A DNA stretch of 64,000 nt, taken from assembly GCF_020387415.1 (NCBI RefSeq), contig NZ_JAGWCB010000007.1, positions 1-64,000 on the forward strand, written 5' to 3'. Positions within the stretch are counted from its first letter, which is position 1. Each line of letters starts with the position of its first letter. The position numbers and the translations under genes are program-made. The DNA comes from Ideonella benzenivorans (GTDB taxonomy: Bacteria > Pseudomonadota > Gammaproteobacteria > Burkholderiales > Burkholderiaceae_C). A model generated the notes under the pieces. The model saw only the letters and a list, made by a program, of their open reading frames with translations, did no database searches and had not been told where the DNA came from. Shown here piece after piece: positions 39,584 through 61,514 of the stretch.

Positions 39584-40621
39584 ATGAAGGGAACCATCCT
39601 GGTGGGAACGGCCGGCCAAGGCATTCTGCGCAGCGTGGACGACGGCGCCTCCTGGCACCGCCTGGGCCTGAAGGAAGCCATCGAGTTCGACGGCGTCGTG
39701 CGGGCCATCGCGGTCGATCCGGCCCACCCCGAGCGCGTGCTGGCCGGAGCCGATGCCGGCCTGTGCCTGAGCGAGGACGGCGGTGCGCACTTCCGCCGCG
39801 TCGAGTCGCCGATGAACGGGCTCACGGTGTGGGCCATCGCCTTCCACCCCGCCAACCCGAAGCTGGTGTTTGCCGGCACCGGGGCGCCGTCGCGGGCCCG
39901 CATGTACCGCTCCCAGGACGGCGGCGAGACCTGGCAGGCGCTGGGCGTGGAACTGCCCGAGTTCTGCCAGGGGGTGAACCGCCCGCGCATCCTCACCATC
40001 GCCGGCCACCCCGACAAGGCCGAGGAGGCCTGGTTCGGGGTCGAAGAGGGCGGTGCCTGGCGCACCGCCGATGCGGGCGAGCACTGGACCCGCGTGGACA
40101 CGCCCGAGTGCCCGATCAACAACTCCGACATCCACGCCATCGCGGTGCTGCCGGCCCTGGGCGAGCAAGCCGTCAAGCATGTGGTGCTGACCGTCAACTC
40201 GGTGTACGACACCAGCGACGACGGCAAGACCTGGCAGGGCAAGGCCTCGAAGGAGCGCTTTGACGGCATGTACTACACCCGCACCGTGCATGTGGTGGAT
40301 GCGGCGGGCAGCACGCTGCTGCTGGCCATTGGCGACGGCACACCGGGCACGCGCACTCAGATCTACCGCTCCACCGACCGGGGCGTGAACTGGACACCCG
40401 CGCTGCTGCACACCCGTCCCAACTCCACCGTCTGGGCCTTCGGCTCCCATGCGGCCGACCCGCAGCTGATCTTCGCCGGCACCAAGTACGGCGACCTGCT
40501 GCGCTCGATGGATGGCGGCGCGAGCTGGTTCAAGGACTGGCGCGAGTTCAGCGAGATCACCGCCGTGGCCTGGACGCCCTTCGTGGCGCCGGTCAAGGCC
40601 CATCCCCAATCCATCAACTGA
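39584..40621 (+). CDS. Cytoplasmic seven-Asp-box beta-propeller protein (copy A)
   Basis: A 345-residue protein containing seven Asp-box (BNR) motifs spaced through the chain: SVDDGASW, SEDGGAHF, SQDGGETW, TADAGEHW, TSDDGKTW, STDRGVNW and SMDGGASW. This indicates a seven-bladed propeller like the sialidase/GH74/VPS10 fold. No signal peptide, so it is cytoplasmic, and no sialidase Arg triad is evident. Related propellers bind or hydrolyse sugars, but here the neighbours are aromatic-catabolism enzymes; it may be a lactonase-like enzyme or a scaffold. SD AGGAG precedes ATG 39584. A paralogue lies at 58351. Confidence 0.8.
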   Translation: MKGTILVGTAGQGILRSVDDGASWHRLGLKEAIEFDGVVRAIAVDPAHPERVLAGADAGLCLSEDGGAHFRRVESPMNGLTVWAIAFHPANPKLVFAGTGAPSRARMYRSQDGGETWQALGVELPEFCQGVNRPRILTIAGHPDKAEEAWFGVEEGGAWRTADAGEHWTRVDTPECPINNSDIHAIAVLPALGEQAVKHVVLTVNSVYDTSDDGKTWQGKASKERFDGMYYTRTVHVVDAAGSTLLLAIGDGTPGTRTQIYRSTDRGVNWTPALLHTRPNSTVWAFGSHAADPQLIFAGTKYGDLLRSMDGGASWFKDWREFSEITAVAWTPFVAPVKAHPQSIN

Positions 40622-40634
40622 GGCACGCGCGGCC

Positions 40635-41120
40635 ATGAGTACCTCCACCGAGCCCAAGCTCAAGGTCCGTCGGACCCACCTGTCGCTCTTCGTCAAGGAC
40701 CCCGTGGCCAGTGCGGCCTGGTACGCCGACGTGCTGGGCATGAAGGAAACCGCCCGCGGACCCCAGTGGGTGATGATGTCCTTCGGTCCCAAGCACCATG
40801 ACATCGCCCTGATCCAGGCTGAGATCCCCGCCGGCACCGAGGTGCTGCGCGGGCCGATCAACATGCAGCACTACGGCCTGGAGATCGATGGGGACATGAC
40901 CGAGCTGCGGCGTCTCTACGGCATGTTGCTGAAGAAGAACGTCCCCATCGTCAAGACCACCGACCACCTGGTGGGCGTGGGCGTGTATTTCACCGATCCG
41001 GACGGGCACCGCCTCGAGTTCTTCTGCGAGGTCATGCACGACGACGCGCAGGCCCAGCGGGCCTTCGGCGAACACCATGGTCCCAGCGATCCGATCACGC
41101 TGGAACCCATTTTTGAATGA
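40635..41120 (+). CDS. VOC-family protein, single-module extradiol-dioxygenase-like (copy A)
   Basis: A 161-residue protein with one vicinal-oxygen-chelate module pair. Candidate metal ligands are His15 (RRTHLSLF), His79 (MQHYGLEI) and Glu128 (HRLEFF). Their spacing (64 and 49 residues) is close to that of the His146/His210/Glu260 iron site of BphC-type extradiol dioxygenases (64 and 50). It may therefore cleave a hydroxylated ring, or act as an isomerase or glyoxalase-like enzyme. It lies between the propeller and AA_synth genes; its paralogue at 59403 has the same neighbour on its 5' side. Confidence 0.82.
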   Translation: MSTSTEPKLKVRRTHLSLFVKDPVASAAWYADVLGMKETARGPQWVMMSFGPKHHDIALIQAEIPAGTEVLRGPINMQHYGLEIDGDMTELRRLYGMLLKKNVPIVKTTDHLVGVGVYFTDPDGHRLEFFCEVMHDDAQAQRAFGEHHGPSDPITLEPIFE

Positions 41121-41131
41121 ACGAGCACACC

Positions 41132-41734
41132 ATGAAATCTCCGAACTTCGGCATCTACCACATCCGCAAGTGGTTCCAGTACATCGAGGACACCCAGGCC
41201 ACCGAGAGCGGCCAGCCGGCGGACGGCCTGCCCTTGCGCAAGTACGTGATCGCCGCCTGCATCCACAACCCCTACGCGGGACGCTATGTGGAGGACCTGA
41301 GCGTCTGGATCGAAGGCTCGCCCGAACTGGGGCATGAGTTCGGCCGTCGCATCCAGGAACTGTCGGCCGGGCGCGAGATCCAGAGCTATGGCAAGGCCAT
41401 CCTGGTCGGTGTGGATGGCGACTACGAGCATGGCAATGCCCTGCTGACCAACCCGGCGGCCAACCCGGTGCGCGACGCCCTGGGCGGTGGCAAGGCCTGG
41501 GTGCCCTCGACCGGCAAGCGCGGCGGCCCGGGCACCATCCTGGACATTCCGCTGGCCCACAAGGATGCGCTCTACGTGCGCTCCCACTACGACACGATCA
41601 GCGTCAGCTTCAACGACGCGCCCTCGCGCGACGAGGTGCTGATCTGCTGGGCCTTCGCCACCCGCGGCCGTCTGAATGCGCGCCTGGGCGGCATCAAGGC
41701 CTCCGAGATCAAAGGCGAGAACGGCCTGGTGTGA
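41132..41734 (+). CDS. AA_synth/DUF1185 family protein
   Basis: A 200-residue protein of the 'amino acid synthesis' family, recognised from IRKWFQYIEDT at the start, NPYAGRYVEDLS, ESYGK-like QSYGKAILVG, ALGGGKAWVPS and KRGGPGTILDIPLAHKD. The biochemical role of the family is not established despite its name; members occur in catabolic operons. Start ATG 41132 has a GAGCACACC leader like its neighbours and matches the family N-terminus. ATG 41117, which overlaps the previous stop as ATGA, is an alternative. Confidence 0.8.
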   Translation: MKSPNFGIYHIRKWFQYIEDTQATESGQPADGLPLRKYVIAACIHNPYAGRYVEDLSVWIEGSPELGHEFGRRIQELSAGREIQSYGKAILVGVDGDYEHGNALLTNPAANPVRDALGGGKAWVPSTGKRGGPGTILDIPLAHKDALYVRSHYDTISVSFNDAPSRDEVLICWAFATRGRLNARLGGIKASEIKGENGLV

Positions 41735-41736
41735 GC

Positions 41737-42585
41737 ATGACGATGGAGCGCAGTTCCTTTCAGTTCACCGTGGCCGGGCTGTCGCTCCACGTCACCGCGT
41801 GGGGCCCGGCCCAGGGGCGGCCCCTGCTGGCCCTGCATGGCATCCGTGGCTTTGGCGAGACCTTTGCCGGCCTGGCCCAGGCGCTGCAGCCCGAGTTCCG
41901 GGTCTGTGCGCTGGACCAGCGGGGCCGGGGGGCCTCCCAATGGGACCCGGCCCACGAGTACTACACCGACCGCTATGTGGCCGACCTGCTGGCCGTGGCC
42001 GATGCGATGGGCCTGCAGCGCTTTGACCTGCTGGGGCACTCGATGGGGGGCATCAACGCCATCGTCTTCGCATCGCAACACCCGGAGCGGGTGGGGCGCC
42101 TGGTGATCGAGGACGCTGGCCCGGGGGCCTTCGAGCACAGCCCCGGGGCCACCCGCATCCGGCGCGAGATGGCGTCCACGCCGGACCGCTTCGCCAGTTG
42201 GGACGCCGCCAGCGCCTTCATGCGGGCCCAGCGCCCCAGCGTCACCGAGGAAGCCCGCCAGCAGCGCCTGCACAGCATGCTCAAGCCGCTGGACGACGGC
42301 AGCTTCACCTGGCGCTACGACCATGTGGGCATTGCCGCCACCCGCCTGAACCCGGACCCGGCCCGCGTCGTGGACCTGCGCCCGCATGTGGCGGCCCTGC
42401 GCTGCCCGACGCTGGTGGTGCGCGGTGGGCGCTCCGACTACCTGCAAGCCGAGATGGCCGCCGAGATGCGCGCGCTCAACCCGCGCCTGCGCGAGACCGT
42501 GATCCCCGACGCCGGGCACTACGTGCACGACGACCAACCCGCCCTGTTCAACGCACAGGTGCGTGCCTTTCTGCTGGAAGCATGA
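41737..42585 (+). CDS. Alpha/beta hydrolase (MhpC-like fold)
   Basis: A 282-residue hydrolase. Oxyanion segment LHGIRGFGETF, nucleophile elbow GHSMGG (Ser102) and catalytic His261 (DAGHYVHDD) are intact, with the acid probably in the VVRGGRSDYL segment. In meta-cleavage pathways such enzymes split ring-fission products; that role fits the adjacent monooxygenase and VOC genes but is not proven. Starts at 41731 (GTG overlapping the preceding TGA), 41737 and 41743 are all in frame. Its stop overlaps the next start. Confidence 0.87.
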   Translation: MTMERSSFQFTVAGLSLHVTAWGPAQGRPLLALHGIRGFGETFAGLAQALQPEFRVCALDQRGRGASQWDPAHEYYTDRYVADLLAVADAMGLQRFDLLGHSMGGINAIVFASQHPERVGRLVIEDAGPGAFEHSPGATRIRREMASTPDRFASWDAASAFMRAQRPSVTEEARQQRLHSMLKPLDDGSFTWRYDHVGIAATRLNPDPARVVDLRPHVAALRCPTLVVRGGRSDYLQAEMAAEMRALNPRLRETVIPDAGHYVHDDQPALFNAQVRAFLLEA

Positions 42586-42884
42586 CCATGATGATCGAGA
42601 TGAGAACCTACACCCTGGTGCCCGGGGGGGTGAGGGAGTACCTGCGGATCTACAACGAGACCGGCCGCAGCGTGCAGCTGGAGATCCTGGGTCAGCTGGT
42701 GAGCCTGATGACCCCGGAGACGGGTGAGCTCAACCAGCTGGTCTTTCTCTGGGCCTTTCCCAGCTTCGAGGCCCGGCGCGAGCGCCGCGCCCGTCTGATG
42801 GCCGACCCCCGCTTCACGGAATTCCGCAAGTCCGTCCGTCACCTGCTGGTGAGCCAGGAGAACCGGCTGCTCAACGAAGTCTGA
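42582..42884 (+). CDS. NIPSNAP-family protein
   Basis: A 100-residue alpha/beta-barrel-type protein starting MTMMIEMRTYTLVPGGVREYLRIYNETG, the NIPSNAP signature, with LNQLVFLWAFPSFEARRERRARLMADPRF in the second half. ATG overlaps the hydrolase stop (ATGA), so it is translationally coupled. Small ferredoxin-like folds of this family are frequent in aromatic-degradation operons, where they may act as enzymes or chaperones; the function is unknown. Confidence 0.82.
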   Translation: MTMMIEMRTYTLVPGGVREYLRIYNETGRSVQLEILGQLVSLMTPETGELNQLVFLWAFPSFEARRERRARLMADPRFTEFRKSVRHLLVSQENRLLNEV

Positions 42885-42910: not shown

Positions 42911-44584
42911 ATGATCAAGCAAACAGAAGTGCAGGTGCTGGTGGTAGGGGCCGGCCCGGTGGGCGTGTCCCTGGCCAACCTGCTGGGATGCTATGGCGTC
43001 CAGACCCTGGTGGTGGACCGCAGTCCCACGGTGCTGGACTTTCCGCGCGCGGTCGGCCTGGACGACGAGGCGCTGCGCACCTTCCAGGCGGCCGGGCTGG
43101 CCGAGGACATGTTGACCGACATGATCCAGAACGTGCCGATGCGCATGTACACGGCCGACAAGCGCTGCTTTGCCGAGATCCTGCCGAGCACGCGGGAGTT
43201 CGGCTGGTACCGGCGCAACCTGTTCTCGCAGCCGCTGGGCGAGACCACGCTGCGCAAGGGCCTGGCGCGCCACCCGCAGGTGCAGCTGCAGCTCGGCGTC
43301 GAGCTGGTGGGCCTGCAGCAGGATGCGAGCGGCGTGACCGCCGAGCTGCGCGATGCCGACGGCGCCATCCAGCGCGTGCGGGCGCAGTACTTGGTGGGCT
43401 CCGACGGGGCGCGCAGCACTGTGCGCGAGGGCCTGCTGAAGCTGCCCTACGAGGGGGTCACCCATCCCAACAAGTGGGTGGTGATCGAGTGCGAGGATGA
43501 CCCGCTGGACGCGCCCTACACGGCCCTGCACTGCGAGCCGGCGCGGCCCCATGTCTGCCTGCGCCTGCCCTATGGCCTGCGGCGCTGGGAGTTCATGCTG
43601 TTTCCCGGCGAGGATGGCGAGCAGATGCTGGCGCCCGACCAGGTCCAGGCCCTGCTCAAGGGGCATGTGCCGCACCCCGAGCGGTTGAAGATCATCCGGG
43701 CCCGGGTCTACACCCACAACTCGCGGGTGGCGGGCGAATTCGTCCATGGCCGGGTCTGCCTGGCCGGGGATGCAGCCCACATCACCCCGCCCTGGATCGG
43801 ACAGGGCCTGAATGCAGGCATGCGCGACGCCTTCAACCTGGCCTGGAAACTGGCCTGGGTGGTGCAGGGCCGGATGAAGCCCGAGCAGCTGGCCAGCTAC
43901 CACCTGGAGCGTCACGCCCACGCCAAGGCCATGATCGATCTGGCGGACATGTTCGGCGCCACGCTGTCGCTGCGCAACCGCCCGCTGGCCTGGCTGCGCG
44001 ACCGCTTCTTCCTGGCCATCCAGCACATCCCGCGCTTTCGCGACTATGTGCTGCAGATGAAGTTCAAGCCCATGCCCCGTTTCTCCGAGGGCGTGGTGCT
44101 CAACAGCGGCAAGGCCCGGCAGGACGAGCGGGTGGGGCGCATGTTCATCCAGCCCCTGGTGGAGGTGAACAACGGCGAGCCCCAGCGGCTGGACGATGTG
44201 CTGGGGCCGCGCTTTGCGCTGCTGAGCTGGCGCAGCGACGCGCTGGCCCAGGTCGACGAGGGCCTGAAGGCCCAGTTGCAGCGCCTGGGCTGCGCCGCCT
44301 TCGTGGGCGTGCGGGCCCGCAGCAGCGCCAACGAGGTGGCGCAGGTGCTGCGCACGCCGGGCCTGTCCACGGTGGTGCAGGACATGGAGAACGCGCTGCA
44401 CTTCTGGTTCCAGCAGGCCGGGGTGGACTGGGTGCTGCTGCGGCCGGACCGCTTCGTGGCGGCCGCCGGCCAGGTCGGCGATGCCCCCGACCAGCTACGC
44501 CGCTTCTGCGAGGCCGTGCTGCCCGTGGCCCCGGCGCAGCCCGCCGGGGCCGCGCCGCGCACCTCTGCGGCGGTGGCGGCCTGA
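42911..44584 (+). CDS. FAD-dependent aromatic monooxygenase, MhpA-like (copy A)
   Basis: A 557-residue class A flavoprotein hydroxylase. Dinucleotide motif VVGAGPVGVSLANLL (about 11-25), VGSDGARSTVR (the DG motif) and LAGDAAHITPPWIGQGLNAG (the GD motif) are complete. A C-terminal thioredoxin-like domain (about 400-540) is as in MhpA/PheA. It uses NAD(P)H and O2 to hydroxylate a phenolic ring. It is paralogous to 59889-61514, sharing LDDEAL, YTHNSRVA and the GD segment. SD is weak (AAGGCACACAAAC). Substrate unknown. Confidence 0.9.
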   Translation: MIKQTEVQVLVVGAGPVGVSLANLLGCYGVQTLVVDRSPTVLDFPRAVGLDDEALRTFQAAGLAEDMLTDMIQNVPMRMYTADKRCFAEILPSTREFGWYRRNLFSQPLGETTLRKGLARHPQVQLQLGVELVGLQQDASGVTAELRDADGAIQRVRAQYLVGSDGARSTVREGLLKLPYEGVTHPNKWVVIECEDDPLDAPYTALHCEPARPHVCLRLPYGLRRWEFMLFPGEDGEQMLAPDQVQALLKGHVPHPERLKIIRARVYTHNSRVAGEFVHGRVCLAGDAAHITPPWIGQGLNAGMRDAFNLAWKLAWVVQGRMKPEQLASYHLERHAHAKAMIDLADMFGATLSLRNRPLAWLRDRFFLAIQHIPRFRDYVLQMKFKPMPRFSEGVVLNSGKARQDERVGRMFIQPLVEVNNGEPQRLDDVLGPRFALLSWRSDALAQVDEGLKAQLQRLGCAAFVGVRARSSANEVAQVLRTPGLSTVVQDMENALHFWFQQAGVDWVLLRPDRFVAAAGQVGDAPDQLRRFCEAVLPVAPAQPAGAAPRTSAAVAA

Positions 44585-44621: not shown

Positions 44622-46052
44622 ATGTACCCGACCCTGGCCCTCTACATCGACGGCGAGTTCATCGACGCCAGCCGCACCGCCCGCGCCCAGGATGTGCGCG
44701 ACCCGGCCACCCAGCAGCTCCTGGGGCAACTGCCCTGGGCCGAGACGGCGGATCTGGAGCGCGCCGTGCAGGCGGCCGACCGGGCCTGGCGCCAGTGGCG
44801 CCGCAGCTCGCCGATGGAGCGCGCCGCCGTCCTGCGCAAGGTGGGCGAACTGGCCCGCCTGCGGGTGGAGGAGATCGCCCAGGCCATCACGCTGGACAAC
44901 GGCAAGCCGTTGGCCGAAGCGCGGGCCGAGGTGCTCAACAGCGCCGAGCATGCCGAGTGGAACGCGGAGGAGTGCCGGCGCATCTATGGCCGGGTGGTGC
45001 CGCCGCGGGACCCGGCGGTGCGCCAGCTGGTGACCCGCGAGGCCATCGGCGTGTGCGCGGCCTTCAGTCCCTGGAACTTCCCGATGGGCCAGGCCATCAA
45101 GAAGGTCGCTGCCGCGATCGGTGCCGGCTGTGCCGTGGTGCTCAAGGGGCCGGAGGAATCCCCCAGCGCGGTGCTAGCCCTGGCCCAGCTGTTCCATGAC
45201 GCGGGTCTGCCCCCGGGCGTGCTCAACGTGGTGTGGGGCGTGCCGGGCGAGATCTCCCAGCACCTGATCACCCATCCGCTGGTGCGCAAGGTGTCGTTCA
45301 CTGGCTCGGTGCCGGTGGGCAAGCAGCTCGCCGCCCTGGCCGGTGCGCACATGAAGCGGGTCAGCATGGAGCTGGGCGGGCATTCGCCGGTGATCGTGTT
45401 CCCGGATGCCGACCTGGATGCGGCTGTCGCCCTGCTGGCCCGCCTGAAGACCCGCAATGCCGGGCAGGTCTGCGTCTCGCCCTCGCGTTTCTTTGTCCAC
45501 CGGCAGGTCTACCCGGCCTTTCTGGAGCGCTTTGGCCAGGCGATTGCCGGGGTGCGGCTGGGCCACGGCCTGGCCCCCGAGACCCAGATGGGGCCGCTGA
45601 TCCATGGCCGGCGGCTGCAGGCCATCAGCGAGCTGGTCGACGATGCGCTCTCCTGTGGCGGGGAGCTGGTGACCGGTGGACAGCGCCTGGAAGGGGCTGG
45701 CCACTTCTACCGCCCGACGGTGATTGCGGGCGTGCCCGAACACGCCCGCGTGCTGTGCGAGGAGCCCTTCGGGCCGATCGCCCCGGTGATGCCCTTCGAC
45801 GACACCGAGGAGGTGATCGCCCGGGCCAACAGCGTGCCCTTCGGCCTGGCGTCCTATGTGTTCACCGAGTCGATCAAGACCGCCACCCGGGTCTCCGAGG
45901 GCCTGGAGGTGGGCATGGTCAACATCAACCATTCGGGCATGGCCCACCCCGAGCTGCCCTTTGGCGGCATCAAGGACAGCGGCATCGGCAGCGAGGGAGG
46001 CACCGAGACCTTCGACGGCTACCTGGTGACCAAGCTGACCACCCAGATCTGA
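44622..46052 (+). CDS. Aldehyde dehydrogenase (first of three)
   Basis: A 476-residue NAD(P)-dependent dehydrogenase. SPWNFP cofactor loop, SFTGSVPVGKQ, general base Glu250 (MELGGHSP) and nucleophile Cys284 (AGQVCVSPSR) are all present. It oxidises an aldehyde to an acid, perhaps the product of the ThDP decarboxylase or hydrolase upstream. AAAGGA precedes ATG 44622. The next gene is a second dehydrogenase 32 bp on. Confidence 0.92.
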   Translation: MYPTLALYIDGEFIDASRTARAQDVRDPATQQLLGQLPWAETADLERAVQAADRAWRQWRRSSPMERAAVLRKVGELARLRVEEIAQAITLDNGKPLAEARAEVLNSAEHAEWNAEECRRIYGRVVPPRDPAVRQLVTREAIGVCAAFSPWNFPMGQAIKKVAAAIGAGCAVVLKGPEESPSAVLALAQLFHDAGLPPGVLNVVWGVPGEISQHLITHPLVRKVSFTGSVPVGKQLAALAGAHMKRVSMELGGHSPVIVFPDADLDAAVALLARLKTRNAGQVCVSPSRFFVHRQVYPAFLERFGQAIAGVRLGHGLAPETQMGPLIHGRRLQAISELVDDALSCGGELVTGGQRLEGAGHFYRPTVIAGVPEHARVLCEEPFGPIAPVMPFDDTEEVIARANSVPFGLASYVFTESIKTATRVSEGLEVGMVNINHSGMAHPELPFGGIKDSGIGSEGGTETFDGYLVTKLTTQI

Positions 46053-46084: not shown

Positions 46085-47533
46085 ATGCTTGAACTGAACG
46101 ATCCCTCCCTGCTGCCTGGTCGCTGCCTGCTGGGCGGTCAATGGCGCACGGCCGAACGCACCATCGACGTGATGAACCCCGGTCGCGGCGGTCTGGTGGG
46201 CACGGTGCCCCGCATGGGCCGTGCGGAGACCCAGGCGGCCATCGAGGCGGCGGCCACGGCCTGGGCCGACTGGCGAGCCCGCCCGGCCAAGGAGCGCTCG
46301 GCCATCCTGCTGGCCTGGTACCAGGCGGTTCTGGGGGCCCAGGAGGACCTGGCCCGCATCATGACCGCCGAGCAGGGCAAGCCACTGGCCGAGGCCCGCG
46401 GGGAAGTGGCCTATGCCGCCTCTTTCCTCCAATGGTTTGGTGAAGAGGCCAAGCGCGTCTATGGCGACACCATCCCGGCCCCATTGCGCTCGCAGCGCAT
46501 CGTGGTGACCAAGGAGCCGGTGGGCGTGTGCGCCGCCATCACGCCCTGGAACTTCCCCGCCGCGATGATCACCCGCAAGGCCGGGGCCGCGTTGGCCGCG
46601 GGCTGCACCATGGTGGTCAAGCCGGCCAGCCAGACGCCCCTGACCGCGTTGGCCCTGGCCGTGCTGGCCGAGCGCGCGGGGGTACCGGCGGGGGTGCTGT
46701 CGGTCATCACGGGCTCGGCCAGTGAGATCGGCGACGAGCTGACCCGCAACCCGCTGGTGCGCAAGCTCAGCTTCACCGGCTCCACCGAGGTCGGCCGCAC
46801 CCTGATGCGCCAGTGCGCGGACACGGTCAAGAAGGTGTCGATGGAGCTGGGCGGCAACGCGCCCTTCATCGTCTTCGACGATGCCGATCTGGACGCCGCG
46901 GTGGAGGGGGCGCTGGCTTCCAAGTACCGCAACGCGGGCCAGACCTGCGTCTGCGCCAACCGCTTCTATGTGCAGGCCGGGGTGTACGAGCGCTTTGCCG
47001 ACAAGCTGGCCGCCGCCGTCTCGGCCCTGCAGGTGGGGCCGGGCGATGAAGCCGGGGTGACGGTCGGCCCGCTGATCGACACCCGGGCGGTGGACAAGGT
47101 CGAAGAGCATGTGGCGGACGCCCTGGCCCAGGGGGCTGCGGTCCGCCTCGGCGGCCGGCGCCATGCCCTGGGTGGCTCGTTCTATGAGCCCACCATCCTC
47201 ACCGGTGCCACGCAGGCGATGAAGGTGGCCCGCGAAGAGACCTTCGGTCCGCTGGCGCCGCTGTTTCGCTTCGAGACCGAGGACGAGGTGGTGGCCATGG
47301 CCAACGACACCGAGTTCGGTCTGGCCAGCTACTTCTACGCCCGGGACCTGGGACGCGTCTGGCGGGTGGCCGAGCGCCTGGAGTACGGCATGGTCGGCGT
47401 CAACACCGGCCTGATCTCCAACGAGGTGGCGCCCTTCGGTGGCGTCAAGCAGTCGGGCCTGGGCCGCGAAGGCTCGCACTACGGCATCGACGACTACCTG
47501 GTCATCAAGTACATCAACATGGCCGGCATCTGA
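46085..47533 (+). CDS. Succinate-semialdehyde dehydrogenase-like protein
   Basis: A 482-residue aldehyde dehydrogenase closest in feel to GabD: TAEQGKPLAEARGEV, PWNFPAAMITRKAGAALAAGC, general base Glu254 (MELGGNAP), nucleophile Cys288 (AGQTCVCANR) and SNEVAPFGGVKQSGLGREGS. GabD oxidises succinate semialdehyde to succinate. Last gene of the operon that starts at 37151; it converges with the second IclR gene 9 bp away. It would drain a C4 semialdehyde from ring cleavage or from the aminotransferase at 30428 into the TCA cycle. Confidence 0.88.
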   Translation: MLELNDPSLLPGRCLLGGQWRTAERTIDVMNPGRGGLVGTVPRMGRAETQAAIEAAATAWADWRARPAKERSAILLAWYQAVLGAQEDLARIMTAEQGKPLAEARGEVAYAASFLQWFGEEAKRVYGDTIPAPLRSQRIVVTKEPVGVCAAITPWNFPAAMITRKAGAALAAGCTMVVKPASQTPLTALALAVLAERAGVPAGVLSVITGSASEIGDELTRNPLVRKLSFTGSTEVGRTLMRQCADTVKKVSMELGGNAPFIVFDDADLDAAVEGALASKYRNAGQTCVCANRFYVQAGVYERFADKLAAAVSALQVGPGDEAGVTVGPLIDTRAVDKVEEHVADALAQGAAVRLGGRRHALGGSFYEPTILTGATQAMKVAREETFGPLAPLFRFETEDEVVAMANDTEFGLASYFYARDLGRVWRVAERLEYGMVGVNTGLISNEVAPFGGVKQSGLGREGSHYGIDDYLVIKYINMAGI

Positions 47534-47542
47534 GCCGGGCCG

Positions 47543-48295
47543 TCATGGGGGCGTCAGCCGCTGGGCCAGGCGCGCCGTGACCTGCTGGGCCGACTGCAGC
47601 AGCAGGCGGCCGAGTTCCTCTTCCTTGAAGCGCTCGTAATGGTCGGGATGGAAGATCAGCGTCATGCTGCCGGCGATCTCGCCGGTCGGGAAGAACACCG
47701 GTGCGGCGATGCCGACCGCGCCGGTCTCCACCTCCTGGCGCGACACCCAGTAGCCGTTGCGGCGGATGGCCTCCATCAGCGCGGCAAAGGCCGGCCAGTC
47801 GCCGCCCAGGGCCTGCACGTCGGGCTCTTGCTGGTGGCTGTTCCAGATGCGCTTGAGCCGGCTGCCGCGCAGGTGGGCCAGGATCACCTTGGAGCTGCAG
47901 CTGCGGAAGGTCGGGACGGCCTGGCCGCGGCCGTACAGCAGGTCCGTCCTGGCCACCGGCGCGGTCTGGTGGATGTTGATGATCTGGTCGTTGTACATCG
48001 AGGCGAGCAGGCCCATCGAGTAGGTCATCTGCGCGACCTCCGAGAGCACCTCGTCGGCCGAGTTGATCAGCGGGTCCGACTCGCGAATGCGGTAGTCGAA
48101 CTGGATGATCCGCGGCCCCAGGCCATAGGTGCCGGCGTTGCTGACGAGCAGGCCCGCGTGCATCAGCTCGGCGATGTAGCGGTAGCAGGTGGTGCGGGCC
48201 AGATGCAGTTGGTCGGCGATCTGGTCGGCGGTGAGTGCGGTGTTCTCTTTGGTGAAGAGATCCAGCACCGAGAGCATCCGGGTGAGGCTGGACAT
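47543..48295 (-). CDS. IclR-family transcriptional regulator (second copy)
   Basis: A 250-residue regulator with N-terminal winged HTH (SSLTRMLSVLDLFTKENTALTADQIADQLHLARTTCYRYIAEL) and C-terminal effector domain (about 75-245, ending in the GAVGIAAPVFFPTGEIAGSMTLIF segment). It resembles the copy at 35981-36742 in length and motif layout. It is divergent from the ABC transporter operon; the 383-bp gap carries three TCCC-N7-GGGA palindromes, two of them near its own promoter region, so auto-regulation and control of the transporter are likely. Confidence 0.92.
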   Translation of the reverse strand: MSSLTRMLSVLDLFTKENTALTADQIADQLHLARTTCYRYIAELMHAGLLVSNAGTYGLGPRIIQFDYRIRESDPLINSADEVLSEVAQMTYSMGLLASMYNDQIINIHQTAPVARTDLLYGRGQAVPTFRSCSSKVILAHLRGSRLKRIWNSHQQEPDVQALGGDWPAFAALMEAIRRNGYWVSRQEVETGAVGIAAPVFFPTGEIAGSMTLIFHPDHYERFKEEELGRLLLQSAQQVTARLAQRLTPP

Positions 48296-48342
48296 GCGTT
48301 CGGGTGGGTTGTAGAGGCGAACGGGCGCGGATTGTACGAAGC

Positions 48343-48357
48343 ACCCGTGATGCGGGA
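48343..48357. promoter_or_regulatory. Operator-like palindrome, site 1
   Basis: ACCCGTGATGCGGGA, 4-7-4 layout (CCC...GGG), about 48 bp upstream of the second IclR start codon. One of three 15-mers in this gap that fit (T/A)CCCnnnATnnGGGA. Confidence 0.55.
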
Positions 48358-48380
48358 TCGGTCGGTTCACGACAATTAAA

Positions 48381-48395
48381 TCCCGTAATTCGGGA
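48381..48395. promoter_or_regulatory. Operator-like palindrome, site 2
   Basis: TCCCGTAATTCGGGA, the most perfect of the three palindromes (TCCCG/CGGGA arms), about 86 bp upstream of the IclR start codon. Its core GTAATTC is close to GCTATTC in the palindrome upstream of the ThDP operon. Confidence 0.6.
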
Positions 48396-48467
48396 CTACA
48401 CCGGTTGTTTCTGTGGGTGGCCGATGAAAAACTGGCACCAACAGCGACATGTGTTGCGACGAGAGCC

Positions 48468-48498
48468 CCAATTTGGTGAGAAATGGATCCCAAATTGG
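48468..48498. repeat. Inverted CCAATTTGG / CCAAATTGG pair
   Basis: CCAATTTGG (48468-48476) and CCAAATTGG (48490-48498) are complementary to each other, 13 bp apart. They lie upstream of the sigma-54 promoter, where an activator or IHF might bind. Function unknown. Confidence 0.4.
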
Positions 48499-49848: not shown

Positions 49849-49870
49849 TCGATTCAGCGGGCAGTTCGAG

Positions 49871-54856: not shown

Positions 54857-56323
54857 ATGTCTCAGTCCCAGATGGTCCTGAACTACATCAATGGCCAATC
54901 CGTGCCCGCGCAATCCGGCAGCACCTTTGACAAGGCCGAACCGGCCACCGGCGTCGTGCGCTGGCAGGTGGCCTCCGCCCGGGCGGAGGATGTCGACCAG
55001 GCGGTGCAGGCCGCGCAGGCCGCGTTCAAGGGGGCCTGGTCGGCCCTGTCGGGCGCTGCCCGCGGTCGCCTGATCCACCGACTGGCCGACCTGCTGGAGG
55101 CCCGCGCCTCGGCCTTTGCCGAGCTGCTGGCCCGTGAGCAGGGCCGCCCGGCCAGCGACCTGATGATGATGGACCTGCCGATGTGCGTGGACACGCTGCG
55201 CTACTTCGCGGGTTGGGCCGACAAGCTCGAAGGCCGCACCATCCCCACGGGCGGCTTCATGGGCACGCCCACGTTGAACTACACCCGGCGCGAGCCGGTG
55301 GGCGTGGTGGCCTTGATCGTGCCCTGGAACGCACCGCTGATGATCGCCATCTGGAAGCTGGCGCCGGCCCTGGCCGCGGGCTGCACGGTGGTCATCAAGA
55401 CCTCCGAGGATGCCCCGGTGGCCGTGGGGGCGCTGGCTGCCTTGCTGGACGAGGCCGGCCTGCCGCCCGGGGTGGTCAACATCGTGCACGGCATGGGGCC
55501 GGAGGCGGGCGCCTCGCTGGTGGCCCATCCCCTGGTGCGCAAGATCAGCTTCACCGGCAGCACCCAGGTGGGCCGCCTGATCGGCCAGGCCGCTGCCAGC
55601 AGTTTCAAGCGGGTGACGCTGGAACTGGGTGGCAAGGCGCCGCAGATCGTGTTCGCCGATGCCGATCTGGACCAGGCGGTGCTGGGCCTGGCGATGGGGC
55701 TGTTCGTCAACCAGGGCCAGGTCTGCGCGGCGGGCTCACGCCTGCTGGTCCAGCGCAGCATCCTGCGCGACGTGGAGGACCGGCTGGCGGCCTGCGCGCG
55801 CGACATCCGGCTGGTGGGCCACGAGGCCGAACCGGCGCCGCCCTGGGTGCAGATGGGCGCGCTGATCAGCCCCCGGCACCGGGACCGGGTGCAGGAACAC
55901 ATCGACCGTGCCCTGGCCGAAGGGGCCCGCTGCATTGCCGGCGGCGAGGGCGCTCTGCCCAGCGGCGGCTACTACCTGCGCCCGACCCTGTTCACCGACG
56001 TGACGCCGGACATGCACCTGGCGCGCGAGGAGGTGTTCGGGCCGGTGGGGGCCATCCTGCCCTTTGACACCGAGGAAGAGGCCATCGCGCTGGCCAACGA
56101 CTGTGTCTACGGCCTGTCGGCCTCGGTGTGGACGCGCGACCTGGCCACGGCCCACCGCGTGTCCGCCCAGCTGGAGGTGGGGGCCGTGGCCGTGAACTGC
56201 TGGAGTCCGCTGGATGCGCGCCTGCCCTGGGGCGGCGTCAAGGACAGCGGGGTGGGCAAGGACTTGTCGCGCCTGGCGCTGGACGCCTACCTGGAAGAGA
56301 AGACGGTGACCGTCGCGCTCTGA
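54857..56323 (+). CDS. Aldehyde dehydrogenase (third of three)
   Basis: A 488-residue aldehyde dehydrogenase. PWNAPLMIAIWKLAPALAAGC, SFTGSTQVGR, Glu256 (LELGGKAP), Cys290 (GQVCAAGSR) and EVFGPVGAILPF are present. It probably oxidises the aldehyde produced by the GMC enzyme just upstream. GGAG precedes ATG 54857. It is more like betaine/aromatic aldehyde dehydrogenases than like GabD, but the substrate cannot be assigned. Confidence 0.9.
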   Translation: MSQSQMVLNYINGQSVPAQSGSTFDKAEPATGVVRWQVASARAEDVDQAVQAAQAAFKGAWSALSGAARGRLIHRLADLLEARASAFAELLAREQGRPASDLMMMDLPMCVDTLRYFAGWADKLEGRTIPTGGFMGTPTLNYTRREPVGVVALIVPWNAPLMIAIWKLAPALAAGCTVVIKTSEDAPVAVGALAALLDEAGLPPGVVNIVHGMGPEAGASLVAHPLVRKISFTGSTQVGRLIGQAAASSFKRVTLELGGKAPQIVFADADLDQAVLGLAMGLFVNQGQVCAAGSRLLVQRSILRDVEDRLAACARDIRLVGHEAEPAPPWVQMGALISPRHRDRVQEHIDRALAEGARCIAGGEGALPSGGYYLRPTLFTDVTPDMHLAREEVFGPVGAILPFDTEEEAIALANDCVYGLSASVWTRDLATAHRVSAQLEVGAVAVNCWSPLDARLPWGGVKDSGVGKDLSRLALDAYLEEKTVTVAL

Positions 56324-56500
56324 ATCCACTGACCTGTCACTGAAAGACGCCGGCTCCCTCCCTTGCCCGGGGGCCGGTTGCCTGGCAGGCCACACGCTTG
56401 ACCTGGGAACACACCGCGAAGCCTTTGGCGACGCGGTGAGGGCGAACTCATCTCTGCAATTTGAATTTCGGGGGTTTTTATGTTGAACGAGGAGAGATTC

Positions 56501-57595
56501 ATGCCGGTGGGAATTCGTGCGGTGGCGACCGCGGTGTTGTGCTGTCTGGCGGGTGCCGCCCAAGCCCAGCAGGCGTCGTCGGTGAACATCTATGGCCTGC
56601 TGGACGTGGGCCTGGACTACAACAGCAACGTGGGTGGCAAGTCCCAGAAGGACGAGACCACCGGCATCCTGGCGCCCAACATCCTGGGTTTCAAGGGCGA
56701 GGAGGATCTGGGCGCCGGCCGCAAGGCCTTCTTCCAGCTCGAAACCCAGTTCGCGGTGGACACCGGCAGCACCATTGGCAACATGTGGGGCCGCCATGCC
56801 CTGGTGGGCCTGAAGTCGGCCACGCTGGGCTCGGTCCAGGCCGGCACGGTGTCGGACTTCATGTTCGACAAGCTCGGCGTCGGCCGCTGGGGCGGCGGCA
56901 AGATGTTCCCCTACGTCAGCCTGACCTTCACCCGCATGGGCCCGTTCTCGCGCTTCATGCCGACCGGCTCCTTCGACTATGACCGCGTGGCCCTGTCCAG
57001 CCGCATCAACAACGCGGTGCGTTACGACAGCCCGGACTACAACGGCTTCAGCTATGGCGCGCTGTACGGCTTTGGCGAGCAGTCCGGCGGCGTTGGCCTG
57101 AACAACACCGTCAGCCTGGGGGCCACCTACCTGACCGGTCCCTGGACGCTGCAGGCGGCCGGCACACGCCAGCGCCGCGGGGATGTCAACGACGGGCGCG
57201 ATGGCCTGCAGACCTTCGGTGCCGGCGGCCGCTACGACTTTGCCAACGGCTCGTCCTTCGACTTCCTCTACACGAACGCGAAGAACACCTTCACCGACGG
57301 CAAGATCAATTCCTTCGAGATGGGCTACCTCTACCCGACCTCGGCCAACACCGGTCTGATCGGCCAGTACACCTACATGAAGGGCAATGACGTGATCGGT
57401 GGTGCGGGCGCGCACCAGATCAACACCAGCTTCCACTACAAGCTGTCGATGCGCACGCGGGTCTATGCCTCGTATGCCTGGCAGAAGGTGGTGGGCGGCG
57501 ACGGTCTGGACCATGCCCAGATCATCGCGACGGCGGGCCAGTCCAGCAGCGACACGCAAGGGCTGTTCCGCCTGGGCCTGTTCCACGCCTTCTGA
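56501..57595 (+). CDS. Trimeric general porin (betaproteobacterial type)
   Basis: A 364-residue outer-membrane porin. A signal peptide ends at ...AGAAQAQ. The mature start SSVNIYGLLDVGLDYNSNVG and the repeated aromatic-girdle strands are typical of Burkholderiales porins, and the chain ends LGLFHAF with terminal Phe. GAGGAGAG lies at SD distance from ATG 56501; the earlier ATG 56480 lacks one. Its position after transport and oxidation genes suggests it admits the pathway substrate. Confidence 0.9.
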   Translation: MPVGIRAVATAVLCCLAGAAQAQQASSVNIYGLLDVGLDYNSNVGGKSQKDETTGILAPNILGFKGEEDLGAGRKAFFQLETQFAVDTGSTIGNMWGRHALVGLKSATLGSVQAGTVSDFMFDKLGVGRWGGGKMFPYVSLTFTRMGPFSRFMPTGSFDYDRVALSSRINNAVRYDSPDYNGFSYGALYGFGEQSGGVGLNNTVSLGATYLTGPWTLQAAGTRQRRGDVNDGRDGLQTFGAGGRYDFANGSSFDFLYTNAKNTFTDGKINSFEMGYLYPTSANTGLIGQYTYMKGNDVIGGAGAHQINTSFHYKLSMRTRVYASYAWQKVVGGDGLDHAQIIATAGQSSSDTQGLFRLGLFHAF

Positions 57596-57625: not shown

Positions 57626-58108
57626 GTGGCTCAGTCCAAGCTGGCGCGGCACCTCGACTTGGACGAGGCGTTCGCACTGGGGGTGCCGCTGCTGGAGGGG
57701 CTGCACCAGGCGCAAGCCCTGTATGCCCGCCAGATGGATGCCCTCCTGCGGTCCCACGGTCTGACCACGGGCACCTGGCTGCTGCTGGCCGAGCTGAAGG
57801 ACGCGGGGGGCTGCCCCCTGTCCGACCTGGCTTCGCGCATGAGCGTGCACCTGTCGACCCTCACCAAGACGGTTCAGCGCCTGGAGCAGGGCGGGTGGGT
57901 CCACCGCAGTCGGCCACCGGGTGACCTGCGGGTGTCCCTGCTTCAGCTCACCGCATGGGGGGGCGAACGTCTGGACGCGGTCAACGGTGCGCTTTCCGGC
58001 CCGCTGGCGCCCGGTGCCGTGGGCTTGTCCCCGGCGCAGTGGGGACAGGTGGCGCCGCTGCTGGCGACCCTCGTGCACCCGAGGCGGCGGCCACGGGTTT
58101 CACTTTAG
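57626..58108 (+). CDS. MarR-family transcriptional regulator
   Basis: A 160-residue winged-helix protein. The DNA-binding core is GCPLSDLASRMSVHLSTLTKTVQRLEQGGWVHRSRPPGDLRVSLLQLT (about 68-118), with the wing containing the usual D-R pair (GDLR). N- and C-terminal helices should form the dimer. GTG 57626 is preceded by GGGAG. It lies after the porin and before the third operon, and a 7-bp inverted repeat upstream of that operon is a candidate target. MarR proteins commonly respond to phenolic ligands. Confidence 0.87.
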   Translation: MAQSKLARHLDLDEAFALGVPLLEGLHQAQALYARQMDALLRSHGLTTGTWLLLAELKDAGGCPLSDLASRMSVHLSTLTKTVQRLEQGGWVHRSRPPGDLRVSLLQLTAWGGERLDAVNGALSGPLAPGAVGLSPAQWGQVAPLLATLVHPRRRPRVSL

Positions 58109-58350: not shown

Positions 58351-59391
58351 GTGAGCGAAGGAACGTGGTTGGTGGGAACGGCCGGGCAGGGGGTGCTGCG
58401 CAGTGCCGATGGCGGGGCCTCCTGGCATCGGCTGGGACTGCGGCAGGTGATGGAGTTCGATTCGGTGGTCCGGTCCCTGGCGATCAGTCCCGCCGATCCG
58501 GCGACGGTCTATGCCGGCGCCGACATGGGGCTGTGCGTCAGCCACGATGTGGGTGGCCGCTGGGAGCGGGTGTCTGCCCCGTTCGATGGCCAGACCGTCT
58601 GGAAGGTGGCGGTGGACCCACAGGATGCCCAGCGCATCTTCGTGGGCACCGGTGCGCCTTCGCGGGCGGTGCTGTGGCGTTCGCTGGATGGTGGCCGCAG
58701 CTGGACCCGCGCGCCGGTGGACATCCCCGAGCTCTGCGCCGGCGTGAACCGTCCGCGCCTGCTGGCCTTCGCCTTCGACCCCACCGATCGCAACCGCCTC
58801 TGGTTCGGGCTGGAGGAGGGCGGCCTGTTCCGCAGTGCCGATGGGGGCGACCACTGGGAGCGCGTGGACGATCGCCTGTTGTGGGACTTCCACACCGACA
58901 TCCACGCCATCCATGTGCTGCCCAACCACGGGCGCAAGACGGTGGTGGTGGTCTGCGTCAATGCCGTCTACCGCAGTCACGACGACGGCCAGACCTGGGA
59001 AGGCATGCTGCCCCATGACGACTACGGGCTGTACTACGCCCGCACGCTGGGCGCGCCTGCCGGCAGCGAGGACACCCTCTACCTGGGCATTTCGGATGGC
59101 ACGCCCGGCACCACCAGCCGCATCCTGGTGAGCCGGGACGCGGCCGAGCACTGGGAGGTGCTGCCGCTGCCACAGCAGCCGAACGCCTGCTTCTGGGCCA
59201 TCGCGGTGAACCCGGCCGATGCGCGCCAGGTGATCGCCGGCACCAAGTACGGCCACCTGTTCACCTCCGGCGACGGCGGGCTGGGCTGGCGCAAGCAGTG
59301 GCGTGAGTTCAGCGAGATCAGCGATGTGCTGTGGTCGCCGGCCGTGGCCGACATCCACCCGGCCCACCAGTCGATTGCGCACAAGCGCTGA
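58351..59391 (+). CDS. Cytoplasmic seven-Asp-box beta-propeller protein (copy B)
   Basis: A 346-residue paralogue of the protein at 39584. Asp-box-like motifs are SADGGASW, SHDVGGRW, SLDGGRSW, SADGGDHW, SHDDGQTW, SRDAAEHW and SGDGGLGW, again seven. Other stretches shared with copy A are VGTAGQG, FVGTGAPSRA, GVNRPR, ISDGTPGT and WREFSEI. No signal peptide. GTG 58351 follows AAAGGAG at 9 bp. First gene of the third operon; the VOC and monooxygenase paralogues follow in the same order as in the first operon. Function unknown. Confidence 0.8.
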   Translation: MSEGTWLVGTAGQGVLRSADGGASWHRLGLRQVMEFDSVVRSLAISPADPATVYAGADMGLCVSHDVGGRWERVSAPFDGQTVWKVAVDPQDAQRIFVGTGAPSRAVLWRSLDGGRSWTRAPVDIPELCAGVNRPRLLAFAFDPTDRNRLWFGLEEGGLFRSADGGDHWERVDDRLLWDFHTDIHAIHVLPNHGRKTVVVVCVNAVYRSHDDGQTWEGMLPHDDYGLYYARTLGAPAGSEDTLYLGISDGTPGTTSRILVSRDAAEHWEVLPLPQQPNACFWAIAVNPADARQVIAGTKYGHLFTSGDGGLGWRKQWREFSEISDVLWSPAVADIHPAHQSIAHKR

Positions 59392-59402
59392 AGGAGCCGA
59401 GC

Positions 59403-59855
59403 ATGAAGCCCACCATCGTGCGCAACCACATTGCGCTGTTCGTCTCCGATCCCGATGCCTCAGCCCGCTGGTACGCCGATGTGCTGGGCATGCAGGAGTG
59501 CGGCCGCTCCGAGCACTGGATCATGATGTCCTTCGGTCAGAAGCACCATGACATCGCCCTGATCCAGGCCGAGGCAGGGGCCCACCAGGGCGGCCTGGGC
59601 CTGCAGCACTACGGCATGGAGGTCGCTGGCGATCTCGACACGCTGCGGCGCCTGTACGGCATGTTGCTGTCGAAGAACGTGACCATCGTGAAGATCACCG
59701 ACCGCGAGATTGGCATTGGTCTGTACTTCACCGACCCCGATGGCAACCGCCTGGAGTTCTTCCTCGAGACGGACCACGAGGATGCCCGCGCCAAGGCGCG
59801 TTTCCAGGCTGCGGGGGGCCCCAGCCGCCCCATCACGCTCGAACCGATCTTCTGA
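59403..59855 (+). CDS. VOC-family protein, single-module extradiol-dioxygenase-like (copy B)
   Basis: A 150-residue paralogue of the protein at 40635. Candidate metal ligands His9 (VRNHIALF), His69 (LQHYGMEV) and Glu118 (NRLEFF) are kept, spaced 60 and 49 residues; a four-residue deletion lies between the His residues. Conserved segments MMSFGxKHHDIALIQAE and YFTDPDGxRLEFF are shared. GGAGCC before ATG acts as SD. Possible ring-cleaving dioxygenase or isomerase acting on the product of the following monooxygenase. Confidence 0.82.
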   Translation: MKPTIVRNHIALFVSDPDASARWYADVLGMQECGRSEHWIMMSFGQKHHDIALIQAEAGAHQGGLGLQHYGMEVAGDLDTLRRLYGMLLSKNVTIVKITDREIGIGLYFTDPDGNRLEFFLETDHEDARAKARFQAAGGPSRPITLEPIF

Positions 59856-59888
59856 GCGCGGCCCCCTCACTTTTTCAGGAGCACAGTC

Positions 59889-61514
59889 ATGAAACTTCAC
59901 AACACCCAAGTGGTCATCGTGGGCGGTGGCCCCAACGGCATTGCAGCGGCTCACCACATGGGCCTGTACGGGCTGGACTGCGTGGTGCTGGAGACGGCCA
60001 CCGACATCCTGCCGTACCCACGCGCCGTTGGCATGGACGACGAGGCCCTGCGCGTGCTGCAGACCGTCGGTGTGGCCGAGGATGCCCACCAGGACATGAT
60101 CAGCCACGTGCCGCTGCGCTACTACAACGCCCGCGGGACCTGCTTTGCCGAAGTGAAGCCCACCAGCGTGGACAACGGCTGGCCCATGCGCAACCTGTTC
60201 ATGCAGCAGCTGCTGGAGGCCACGATGCGCGAGCATCTGGTCCGCCGGCCCAGCGTGGACCTGCGCCTGGGCCACGAGATGACCGAACTCCAGCAGGACG
60301 AGGCCGGCGTCACCCTGACGGTCAAGCAGCCCGACGGCGAGCTCTATGCGCTGCGGGCCCAGGTCGTGGTGGGCGCCGACGGCGGGCGCTCCAGCGTGCG
60401 CAAGCTGCTGGGCCTGGAGCTGGTGGGCCTGACCCACCCGCGCAAGTGGGTCGTGGTCGATGCGGTGAACGATGAGCTCGACGCCCCCTACACCGCCCTG
60501 CATGCCAACCCGCAGCGGCCCTTCGTCTGCATCCAGCTGCCCTACCGCCAGCGGCGCTGGGAGTTCATGCTGATGGAGGACGAGGATGAGGACACGATGT
60601 GCGAGGAGGGCAACATCCGGCGCCTGATCCGGGCCCACATCGGCGATGCGGTCGACCGGCTGGAGATCATCCGCATCCGCGCCTACACCCACAACTCGCG
60701 CGTGGCCCAGCGCTTCGTCAAGGGGCGGGTGGCGCTGATCGGCGACGCGGCCCACATCACCCCGCCCTGGGCCGGCCAGGGCCTGAACTCCGGCCTGCGC
60801 GACGTGGGCAACCTGTGCTGGAAGGTGGCGATGGTGGTGCTGGGTCGGGCCGACGCCGCCATTCTGCAGACTTATGACACCGAACGCCGTGGCCATGCCA
60901 CCGACCTGATCACCCTGGCCGACAACATGGGGGCCGTTCTGGGCATGACCAACCCGCTGGTCGCCGGTGTGCGGGACTGGCTGTTCCAGGCCGTGGACAC
61001 GGTCGACAGCCTGCGCGAGCACCTGCTGGAATTCCGCTTCAAGCCGCGCGCCATCCTGACCCAGGGGCTGGTCCACCATGAGCGCCCGCTGGACGTGCGC
61101 GAAGAGGACCAGGTCGGGCAGCTGTTCATTCAGCCCTGGGTCGAGGATGCCCAAGGCCAGCGTCAACGGCTGGACGATGTGCTGGGCCCCTGGTACGCGG
61201 TGATTGGCTTTCGCACCAACCCCATCGCCCATCTCGGCGAGGAGGCGCAGGCCACCTGGCGGGCCCTGGACACCCGCTTCATCCAGGTCAACCGCTCCCG
61301 CAGCGGGTACGGGCGCCACCAGCCGCTGCAGACCGAAGGGGTGGTGTGCGTGGAGGATGTCGACAACCGCCTGGAGCAATGGTTCGGGCAGGTGCGTGAC
61401 ACGGTGGTGGTGGTTCGCCCCGACCGCTTCATCGCGGCCATCACCACGCCCGAGCGGCTGGCGTCGACGCTGGCCAAGCTCAAGCGCCAGTTTGAGGCGG
61501 GGCGCGGGCACTGA
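59889..61514 (+). CDS. FAD-dependent aromatic monooxygenase, MhpA-like (copy B)
   Basis: A 541-residue class A flavoprotein hydroxylase paralogous to 42911-44584. FAD motif VIVGGGPNGIAAAHHMG, DG motif VGADGGRSSVRK and GD motif LIGDAAHITPPWAGQGLNSG are intact, with a thioredoxin-like C-terminal domain. Differences in the substrate region (about 180-260) suggest a related but distinct phenolic substrate. AGGAG precedes ATG. It is followed by a flavin reductase-like gene, although class A enzymes reduce their own FAD. Confidence 0.9.
   Translation: MKLHNTQVVIVGGGPNGIAAAHHMGLYGLDCVVLETATDILPYPRAVGMDDEALRVLQTVGVAEDAHQDMISHVPLRYYNARGTCFAEVKPTSVDNGWPMRNLFMQQLLEATMREHLVRRPSVDLRLGHEMTELQQDEAGVTLTVKQPDGELYALRAQVVVGADGGRSSVRKLLGLELVGLTHPRKWVVVDAVNDELDAPYTALHANPQRPFVCIQLPYRQRRWEFMLMEDEDEDTMCEEGNIRRLIRAHIGDAVDRLEIIRIRAYTHNSRVAQRFVKGRVALIGDAAHITPPWAGQGLNSGLRDVGNLCWKVAMVVLGRADAAILQTYDTERRGHATDLITLADNMGAVLGMTNPLVAGVRDWLFQAVDTVDSLREHLLEFRFKPRAILTQGLVHHERPLDVREEDQVGQLFIQPWVEDAQGQRQRLDDVLGPWYAVIGFRTNPIAHLGEEAQATWRALDTRFIQVNRSRSGYGRHQPLQTEGVVCVEDVDNRLEQWFGQVRDTVVVVRPDRFIAAITTPERLASTLAKLKRQFEAGRGH

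Follow-up and report, generated by a model that had tools for sequence, protein, structure and literature searches.

The window analysed here, a stretch of 64,000 nucleotides from Ideonella benzenivorans (contig NZ_JAGWCB010000007.1; genome of 4.49 Mb, 99% complete, with a 16S gene 96.1% identical to that of a Mitsuaria sp. 7 record, the best match in the plasmid collection, which agrees with a place in the Burkholderiales), holds a catabolic island at about 34-63 kb in which two gene groups, copies A and B, show the same order on the plus strand: a beta-propeller, a small VOC protein and a flavin adenine dinucleotide (FAD)-dependent monooxygenase similar to MhpA. On sequence grounds, a probability of about one half is given to the main proposal, namely that this stretch carries two anciently diverged versions of one phenolic catabolic module, in which the propeller would act on the ring-fission product. 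The fixed unit of the module is the propeller together with its VOC neighbour: a VOC gene lies on the same strand beside the propeller in all 20 close copies examined (two in the window and 18 elsewhere), with at most 63 bases between the aligned parts. The retention of this pair in both versions suggests an unrecognised step in bacterial aromatic digestion.

The propeller-VOC pair and its companion genes

Copy A comprises the propeller (39584..40621, 345 aa, PF15902/PF02012), the VOC protein (40635..41120, PF00903) and the monooxygenase (42911..44584, PF01494), all three open frames starting with ATG. The corresponding genes of copy B are found at 58351..59391 (346 aa, PF15902), 59403..59855 (PF00903) and 59889..61514 (PF01494), with GTG as the start of the first open frame and ATG as that of the other two. 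Both monooxygenases pass the NCBIfam model of MhpA-like enzymes, NF004831, with 752 (A) and 723 (B) bits against a cut-off of 546.

Propellers of at least 44% identity were taken as close, and the loci of the survey are labelled with L-numbers. Such propellers were found, besides those of the own genome, in one of 399 genomes of the order, in three of 398 of the phylum and in five of 299 of the family, and in the own genome only among 369 of the class; further ones came from one metagenome-assembled genome in the genome collection and from six plasmid records. The module was met in several genera within the order, in one genus elsewhere in the class, and in Novosphingobium. From these 16 outside genomes or records 15 were taken, a second Novosphingobium humi record (H6) being left out, and L034/L035, L037/L038 and L064/L065 are near relatives rather than independent cases. 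Weak second matches of the propeller profile in L036 and L062 were not counted.

Since the loci had been found by way of the propeller, the reverse search is of importance: VOC B alone, searched against 72,556 plasmid records, gave six matches at 1e-12, and these are the same six accessions that bear propellers at least 45% identical. When monooxygenase B was used against the plasmids (1e-60), 48 records were recovered, of which the best three (46-51%) are three of the six propeller plasmids, the remaining matches being about 44% identical or less. Moreover, no propeller was found in any of 16 control loci of 2.8-9.7 kb each, 11 with an unlinked monooxygenase and five with a distant VOC protein.

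The companions of the pair are more variable. A thiamine pyrophosphate (TPP) enzyme, a short-chain dehydrogenase (SDR), an AA_synth protein and an MhpA-like monooxygenase occur each in the clusters of 15 of the 20 close propellers, and an alpha/beta hydrolase in those of 13. The gene-neighbourhood survey proposed in the earlier note has thus been run, and the trio of propeller, VOC protein and monooxygenase was found at 13 loci outside the window (L034-L036, L057-L062 and L064-L067), so that the idea of a recurrent trio stands. The joint retention claimed for it applies fully to propeller and VOC protein; the trio as such is not privileged, the monooxygenase being no more constant than AA_synth, TPP enzyme or SDR.

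Five clusters are devoid of an MhpA-like monooxygenase. In one of them, L006, an HsaA-type monooxygenase lies next door on the other strand, while the other four belong to two Novosphingobium plasmids, where an HsaA-type enzyme is found at a distance of 22 kb from the first copy and of 9 kb from the second; no MhpA-like enzyme was detected on these plasmids at 1e-60, the search covering the plasmids and not the chromosomes. Hydroxylase exchange is thus plain in one case, the evidence from the other four being looser. It follows from these five clusters that the propeller goes with ring cleavage and not with one hydroxylase; of the earlier suggestion that it is a partner of both hydroxylation and cleavage, the link to cleavage is retained, from gene neighbourhood only, and the tie to one hydroxylase is lost.

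In copy A, the VOC and monooxygenase genes are separated by genes for AA_synth (41117..41734; PF06684, DUF1185, with a chorismate-mutase-like fold), an alpha/beta hydrolase (41731..42585; PF00561), possibly acting on C-C bonds, and a NIPSNAP protein (42576..42884, approximate start; PF07978), all on the plus strand. These genes had been regarded as inserted into a compact trio; they do exist, but the survey does not support insertion, the arrangement with AA_synth being the commoner one. AA_synth stands between VOC and monooxygenase genes in all 10 A-type loci and in three of five B-type ones, counting those of the window, so that the window's copy B appears to be a reduced form. NIPSNAP is confined to A-type loci (9/10, window included), and plasmid pBPJTT of Burkholderia pyrrocinia has, by its annotation, the A-type order with NIPSNAP after the monooxygenase. 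Upstream of propeller A, also on the plus strand, lie the TPP enzyme (37151..38704; PF02776, PF02775; acetolactate synthase/benzoylformate decarboxylase-like and above the cut-off of NF005760) and the SDR (38772..39566; PF13561), the latter immediately preceding the propeller gene at A-type loci.

Paralogy and descent of the two copies

As had been noticed from the window itself, the three gene pairs are paralogous in the same order and strand: propellers A and B share 50% identity over 343 columns, the VOC proteins 62% (153 columns) and the monooxygenases 47% over 520 columns. No third propeller (query propeller B, E <= 0.001) and no third VOC protein (query VOC B, E <= 1e-8) were found in the own genome, which encodes two further MhpA-like monooxygenases, 39% and 36% identical to that of copy B, against 47% for that of copy A.

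A recent duplication was considered and rejected, because the propeller and the monooxygenase of each copy share 72-78% identity with a counterpart from elsewhere and less with the other copy; VOC B, likewise, is nearer to an outside counterpart (76%). The two copies thus appear, by their sequences, to be anciently diverged versions of one module and not the result of a fresh duplication. Genome G1296 also holds both versions, A-type at L059 and B-type at L058.

The trees part the two versions in parallel. In the propeller tree, an A clade of 10 rows (99/98) and a B clade including L006 (100/100) were recovered; in the VOC tree of 15 core rows, the B5 group was separated from the other ten (100/99); and the monooxygenase tree, to which true MhpA and actinobacterial relatives had been added, gave A7 and B5 groups with 100/100 each. 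In all three of these trees, L059 and L058 side with the matching window copy. The module monooxygenases form one clade (99/96), which excludes the true MhpA of E. coli and Burkholderia; an independent origin of the two monooxygenases was accordingly rejected, this clade having been obtained with MhpA and the actinobacterial relatives present. For L062 the first monooxygenase piece only was used in the trees: at 12877-14531 of this locus the gene is split over two frames, by a sequencing error or because it is decaying. Given this parallel branching, the split is judged to be old and the three genes to have largely travelled together, with possible exchange in the three Burkholderia-type loci (K3).

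Proposed function and its alternatives

The VOC proteins belong to the PF00903 fold with 54 (A) and 61 (B) bits against a cut-off of 20.6, and carry in both window copies a His-His-Glu triad of predicted metal ligands (H9, H69 and E118). The triad and Y108 are kept in 18 of the 20 aligned VOC proteins, and H49 in all 20; by their spacing, H49 and Y108 presumably correspond to the acid-base residues of extradiol dioxygenases. The best profile matches include catechol 2,3-dioxygenase (1mpy) and homoprotocatechuate dioxygenase, beside Fos-type transferases. The cut-off of 320 of the catechol 2,3-dioxygenase model TIGR03211 was missed by both proteins (30 and 38 bits), this model having 303 positions, twice the VOC length, and the catechol 2,3-dioxygenase matches of VOC B likewise lie below model cut-offs. 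The model used for the fold search was only modestly confident (pLDDT 74.9); its matches were ChaP oxidases, a homogentisate dioxygenase (9u42), Fos proteins and others, and so do not settle the reaction. RecA also appeared among the PDB matches and was set aside as a probable artefact, produced when fused RecA chains are weakly matched several times over. The VOC protein is probably a metal-dependent extradiol-type dioxygenase.

As regards the propeller, seven Asp-box-like motifs are present in both copies, and the AlphaFold2 model of copy B (pLDDT 84.1, pTM 0.87) has an all-beta repeat pattern, so a seven-bladed propeller is predicted. Its nearest solved structure is 3b7f (Reut_B4987), with a TM score of 0.75 by query and 19% identity; L011 was omitted from the structure alignment owing to a stop. 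Conservation of at least 95% was found for 28 polar residues, 19 of them on the predicted top face, six in Asp-box loops and three elsewhere; R136, D183, H185, Y229 and R231 are examples from the top face. The top face is enriched both when these loops are omitted (19/46 against 3/40, p = 4e-4) and when they are counted (19/46 against 9/59, p = 0.004). With its many conserved Arg residues, the propeller would be suited to a negatively charged ligand, for instance an acid formed by ring fission. In public annotation the protein is a sialidase family protein; it misses the cut-off of 175 of the F510_1955 glycosylhydrolase model NF045728 (100.9 and 98.3 bits), and no secretion signal is apparent in its sequence, as judged by eye.

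From the gene neighbourhood only, we infer that the propeller would be an enzyme or a partner for ring fission or for the step after it. In the proposed pathway, the FAD monooxygenase would hydroxylate a phenolic acid, whose ring would then be opened by the VOC protein acting as a metal-dependent extradiol-type dioxygenase. The propeller, apparently cytosolic, would use its charged face to bind the anionic product of ring fission, as such or as a lactone or enol, and would hydrolyse or isomerise it; finally, the alpha/beta hydrolase, the TPP enzyme, the SDR and the aldehyde dehydrogenases would pass the pieces to central metabolism.

Several observations weigh against this proposal, some of them concerning common descent. 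The identity of VOC A to its best A-type relative (65-66%) barely exceeds that to VOC B (63%). In the VOC tree with all outgroups, seven of the 22 inner branches were starred, none of the starred sets containing a window copy. In a second outgroup tree, built without L087, L088, L090 and the second copies of L037 and L038, B5 was kept (97/93) and A7+K3 formed no clade (p 0.178, not rejected). Furthermore, the K3 loci group with A by the propeller and with B by the monooxygenase: in the approximately unbiased (AU) test, A7+K3 was not rejected for the monooxygenase (p 0.137, and 0.275 in the tree with true MhpA), and B+K3 (with L006) was rejected for the propeller (p 0.023). The co-duplication that the earlier note had wished to see tested in trees is therefore borne out for propeller and monooxygenase, and less so for the VOC protein, which is less resolved, and for the discordant K3.

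The pairing and the chemistry have their own adverse points. In two Novosphingobium records (L037 and L038), the second copy of the VOC protein is without part of the triad, and its gene still lies beside a propeller; these second copies are also without the Tyr, the first copies keeping both triad and Tyr, and may represent a non-catalytic VOC protein. The top-face regions were drawn after the list of conserved residues had been seen, and these residues need not meet in one shared pocket. At L079 and at L084 of the own genome (C14, near 550845), a VOC match lies just upstream of an MhpA-like monooxygenase, with no propeller in the 4 kb covered, so that enzymes of these two types can pair without requiring a propeller; L084 makes a third, propeller-free, monooxygenase-VOC pair of the own genome. 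Among 31 more distant propeller loci, many of them short contigs and L027 not extended, the VOC profile (built without the distant VOC rows L087 and L088) was positive in four (L007, L069, L072 and L076), an FAD monooxygenase was present in two (L069 and L070) and an HsaA-type enzyme in one (L072). One subfamily thus shows a strict link between propeller and VOC protein, which is found only now and then in the rest.

Some of these distant loci are of interest in themselves. At L069, a propeller of 38% identity, an FAD monooxygenase and a VOC protein are consecutive. On plasmid pLA3 of Novosphingobium pentaromativorans US6-1 (L039), a longer VOC protein, missed by the profile, is annotated directly upstream of the propeller; an amidohydrolase lies on the other side, and genes for two fumarylacetoacetate hydrolases and a ThuA-domain protein are located upstream. 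At L040 and L063, the propellers directly precede a GMC oxidoreductase and an SDR, which suggests other catabolic roles for the wider propeller family.

In a more specific and tentative form of the proposal, the propeller may belong to a novel class of catabolic beta-propeller enzymes acting in direct cooperation with the small VOC protein at or just after ring fission, the pair being a portable unit fed by unrelated hydroxylases (MhpA-type, perhaps HsaA-type). The clustering of its conserved residues on one charged or polar face (Arg, His, Asp, Glu and Tyr), similar to an active site, argues for catalysis and against the most serious of the alternatives, in our opinion an unlikely one, by which the propeller would be a non-catalytic scaffold, assembly factor or protector of an oxygen-sensitive VOC protein, in the way of Ycf48 in photosystem II assembly. 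Such a partner would be consistent with the pairing in all close copies and in six of six plasmids found through the VOC protein, with its persistence where the VOC triad is incomplete and with the presence of Ycf48 among the structural neighbours of the propeller. In addition, HcdB, the extradiol dioxygenase of a comparable pathway, is reported to be inactivated by aerobic purification (PMC6222606). The absence of a VOC protein by profile from 27 of the 31 distant loci, many of them short contigs, speaks against a partner of this kind.

It is improbable that the propeller works upstream of hydroxylation, as a hydrolase of glycosides or conjugates by which the phenol is released from a bound sugar or acid. 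Its best sequence and fold matches are indeed BNR and GH74 glycosyl hydrolases, in agreement with the sialidase annotation, but the missed NF045728 cut-off, the lack of an apparent secretion signal and the constancy of a VOC gene as neighbour all point elsewhere. Very improbable is mere hitch-hiking, in which the propeller would be carried in a mobile catabolic operon with no part in the chemistry: the VOC-first search gave a close propeller in six of six records, both versions keep it in two genomes (the window's and G1296) and its charged face is conserved. The location of close copies on six large plasmids and the scattered occurrence of the module (two of 399 order and four of 398 phylum genomes, own included) would fit such transport, and propeller loss would be invisible in this set of loci because most were found via the propeller.

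Action of the propeller on the ring-fission product would be of wider significance. In soil bacteria, proteins that bear the label of a sialidase family or of a BNR glycosyl hydrolase are often without a known job. One group of them, being strictly paired with a probable ring-cleavage dioxygenase, can now be assigned a role in aromatic catabolism that is open to testing. This could fill a gap in the scheme of meta-cleavage and help to predict the compounds degraded by such strains.

Neighbouring genes and known systems

The Pfam scan of the island covered 26 reading frames (34365-62835). Divergent from module A, on the minus strand, are an APC-type amino acid/amine permease (34365..35849; PF00324/PF13520), to which permeases near the B-type modules L064 and L065 are 72-74% identical, and an IclR regulator (35981..36811; PF01614, PF09339) with homologues at several module loci. 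Monooxygenase A is followed on the plus strand by an aldehyde dehydrogenase similar to succinate-semialdehyde dehydrogenase (44622..46052; PF00171; best NCBIfam model TIGR01780, below cut-off) and by a second aldehyde dehydrogenase (46085..47533, approximate start; PF00171), which was not among the query genes of the survey, and then by a second IclR regulator on the minus strand (47543..48493; PF01614, PF09339). The stretch up to copy B, again on the plus strand, contains a branched-chain-type ABC uptake system of four genes (48679..53107; PF13458, PF02653, PF00005), a GMC oxidoreductase (53175..54824; PF00732, PF05199; just above the NF002550 cut-off), an aldehyde dehydrogenase nearest to StyD models, below their cut-off (54857..56323; PF00171), a porin (56480..57595; PF13609) and a MarR regulator (57626..58108; PF01047). 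Downstream of copy B, on the same strand, lie a flavin reductase-like protein (61651..62286; PF01613) and a tautomerase (62446..62835; PF14552).

Amine-type genes were also observed: APC permeases near the window module, L034, L035, L064 and L065; a PRK07481-type class III aminotransferase near L035 and L058, with a relative in L034; a PRK06148-like aminotransferase and a kinase at L006; a glutamine-synthetase-like gene at L037 and L038; and cytochrome b561 near modules. They hint at an aromatic amine, but an amine substrate is a lead only, found at a minority of loci, and is not built upon.

Among characterized systems, the mhp pathway of E. coli (MhpABCDFE) shares an MhpA-like monooxygenase (43% identical to that of copy A), ring cleavage and a hydrolase. 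It differs by having mhpB, for a LigB-type dioxygenase, in place of the VOC gene, by the absence of a propeller from the 9.5 kb covered at E. coli mhp and by the position of the module monooxygenases outside the MhpA clade (99/96). Relatives of mhpB, mhpD, mhpE and mhpF, sought by their domain types, were not found by Pfam in the 26 frames.

The hcdABC and hcdDEFG genes for 7-hydroxycoumarin degradation in Pseudomonas mandelii 7HK4, as far as the available parts of the two papers go (PMC6222606, PMC7913881), also combine an FAD hydroxylase, a type I extradiol dioxygenase and a hydrolase, and HcdD is an AA_synth (DUF1185) protein. HcdC, unlike the window hydrolase, belongs to the fumarylacetoacetate hydrolase (FAH) family; further members are the dehydrogenase HcdE and the cupin HcdF. 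No propeller is mentioned in those parts, where neighbouring hp genes are left unidentified. No FAH domain of the HcdC type was found among the Pfam-scanned window genes. With PF06684 occurring in this cluster, as described there, and in the clusters of 15 of the 20 close propellers, part of the AA_synth family may belong to ring-cleavage catabolism.

In the fde (naringenin) and ifc (isoflavone) systems, the text available ties an FAD monooxygenase and a glyoxalase-type protein to ring dioxygenation, with an alpha/beta hydrolase in ifc, and mentions no propeller, figures and gene tables aside. The cupin proteins of ifc and the Rieske protein FdeD of fde set these systems apart, neither a cupin nor a Rieske protein having been found among the Pfam-scanned window genes. 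Reut_B4987 of Ralstonia eutropha JMP134 (PDB 3b7f), the best structural match of the propeller, is likewise a BNR protein, but it is titled a putative glycosyl hydrolase and is distant in sequence. In Pseudomonas veronii SM-20, a BNR repeat protein, which may or may not be related to the present propeller, is reported next to an RND exporter, with a catechol 2,3-dioxygenase gene lying some genes away (PMC11052242).

Among the matches listed in the literature searched, by title and abstract and with most subscription journals uncovered, neither the propeller-VOC pair nor a system with the whole trio was found described, in line with the earlier note, whose author knew of none. In comparison with mhp, hcd, fde and ifc, as far as the sources available describe them, the logic of hydroxylation followed by cleavage is shared, and the new element is the propeller-VOC pair.

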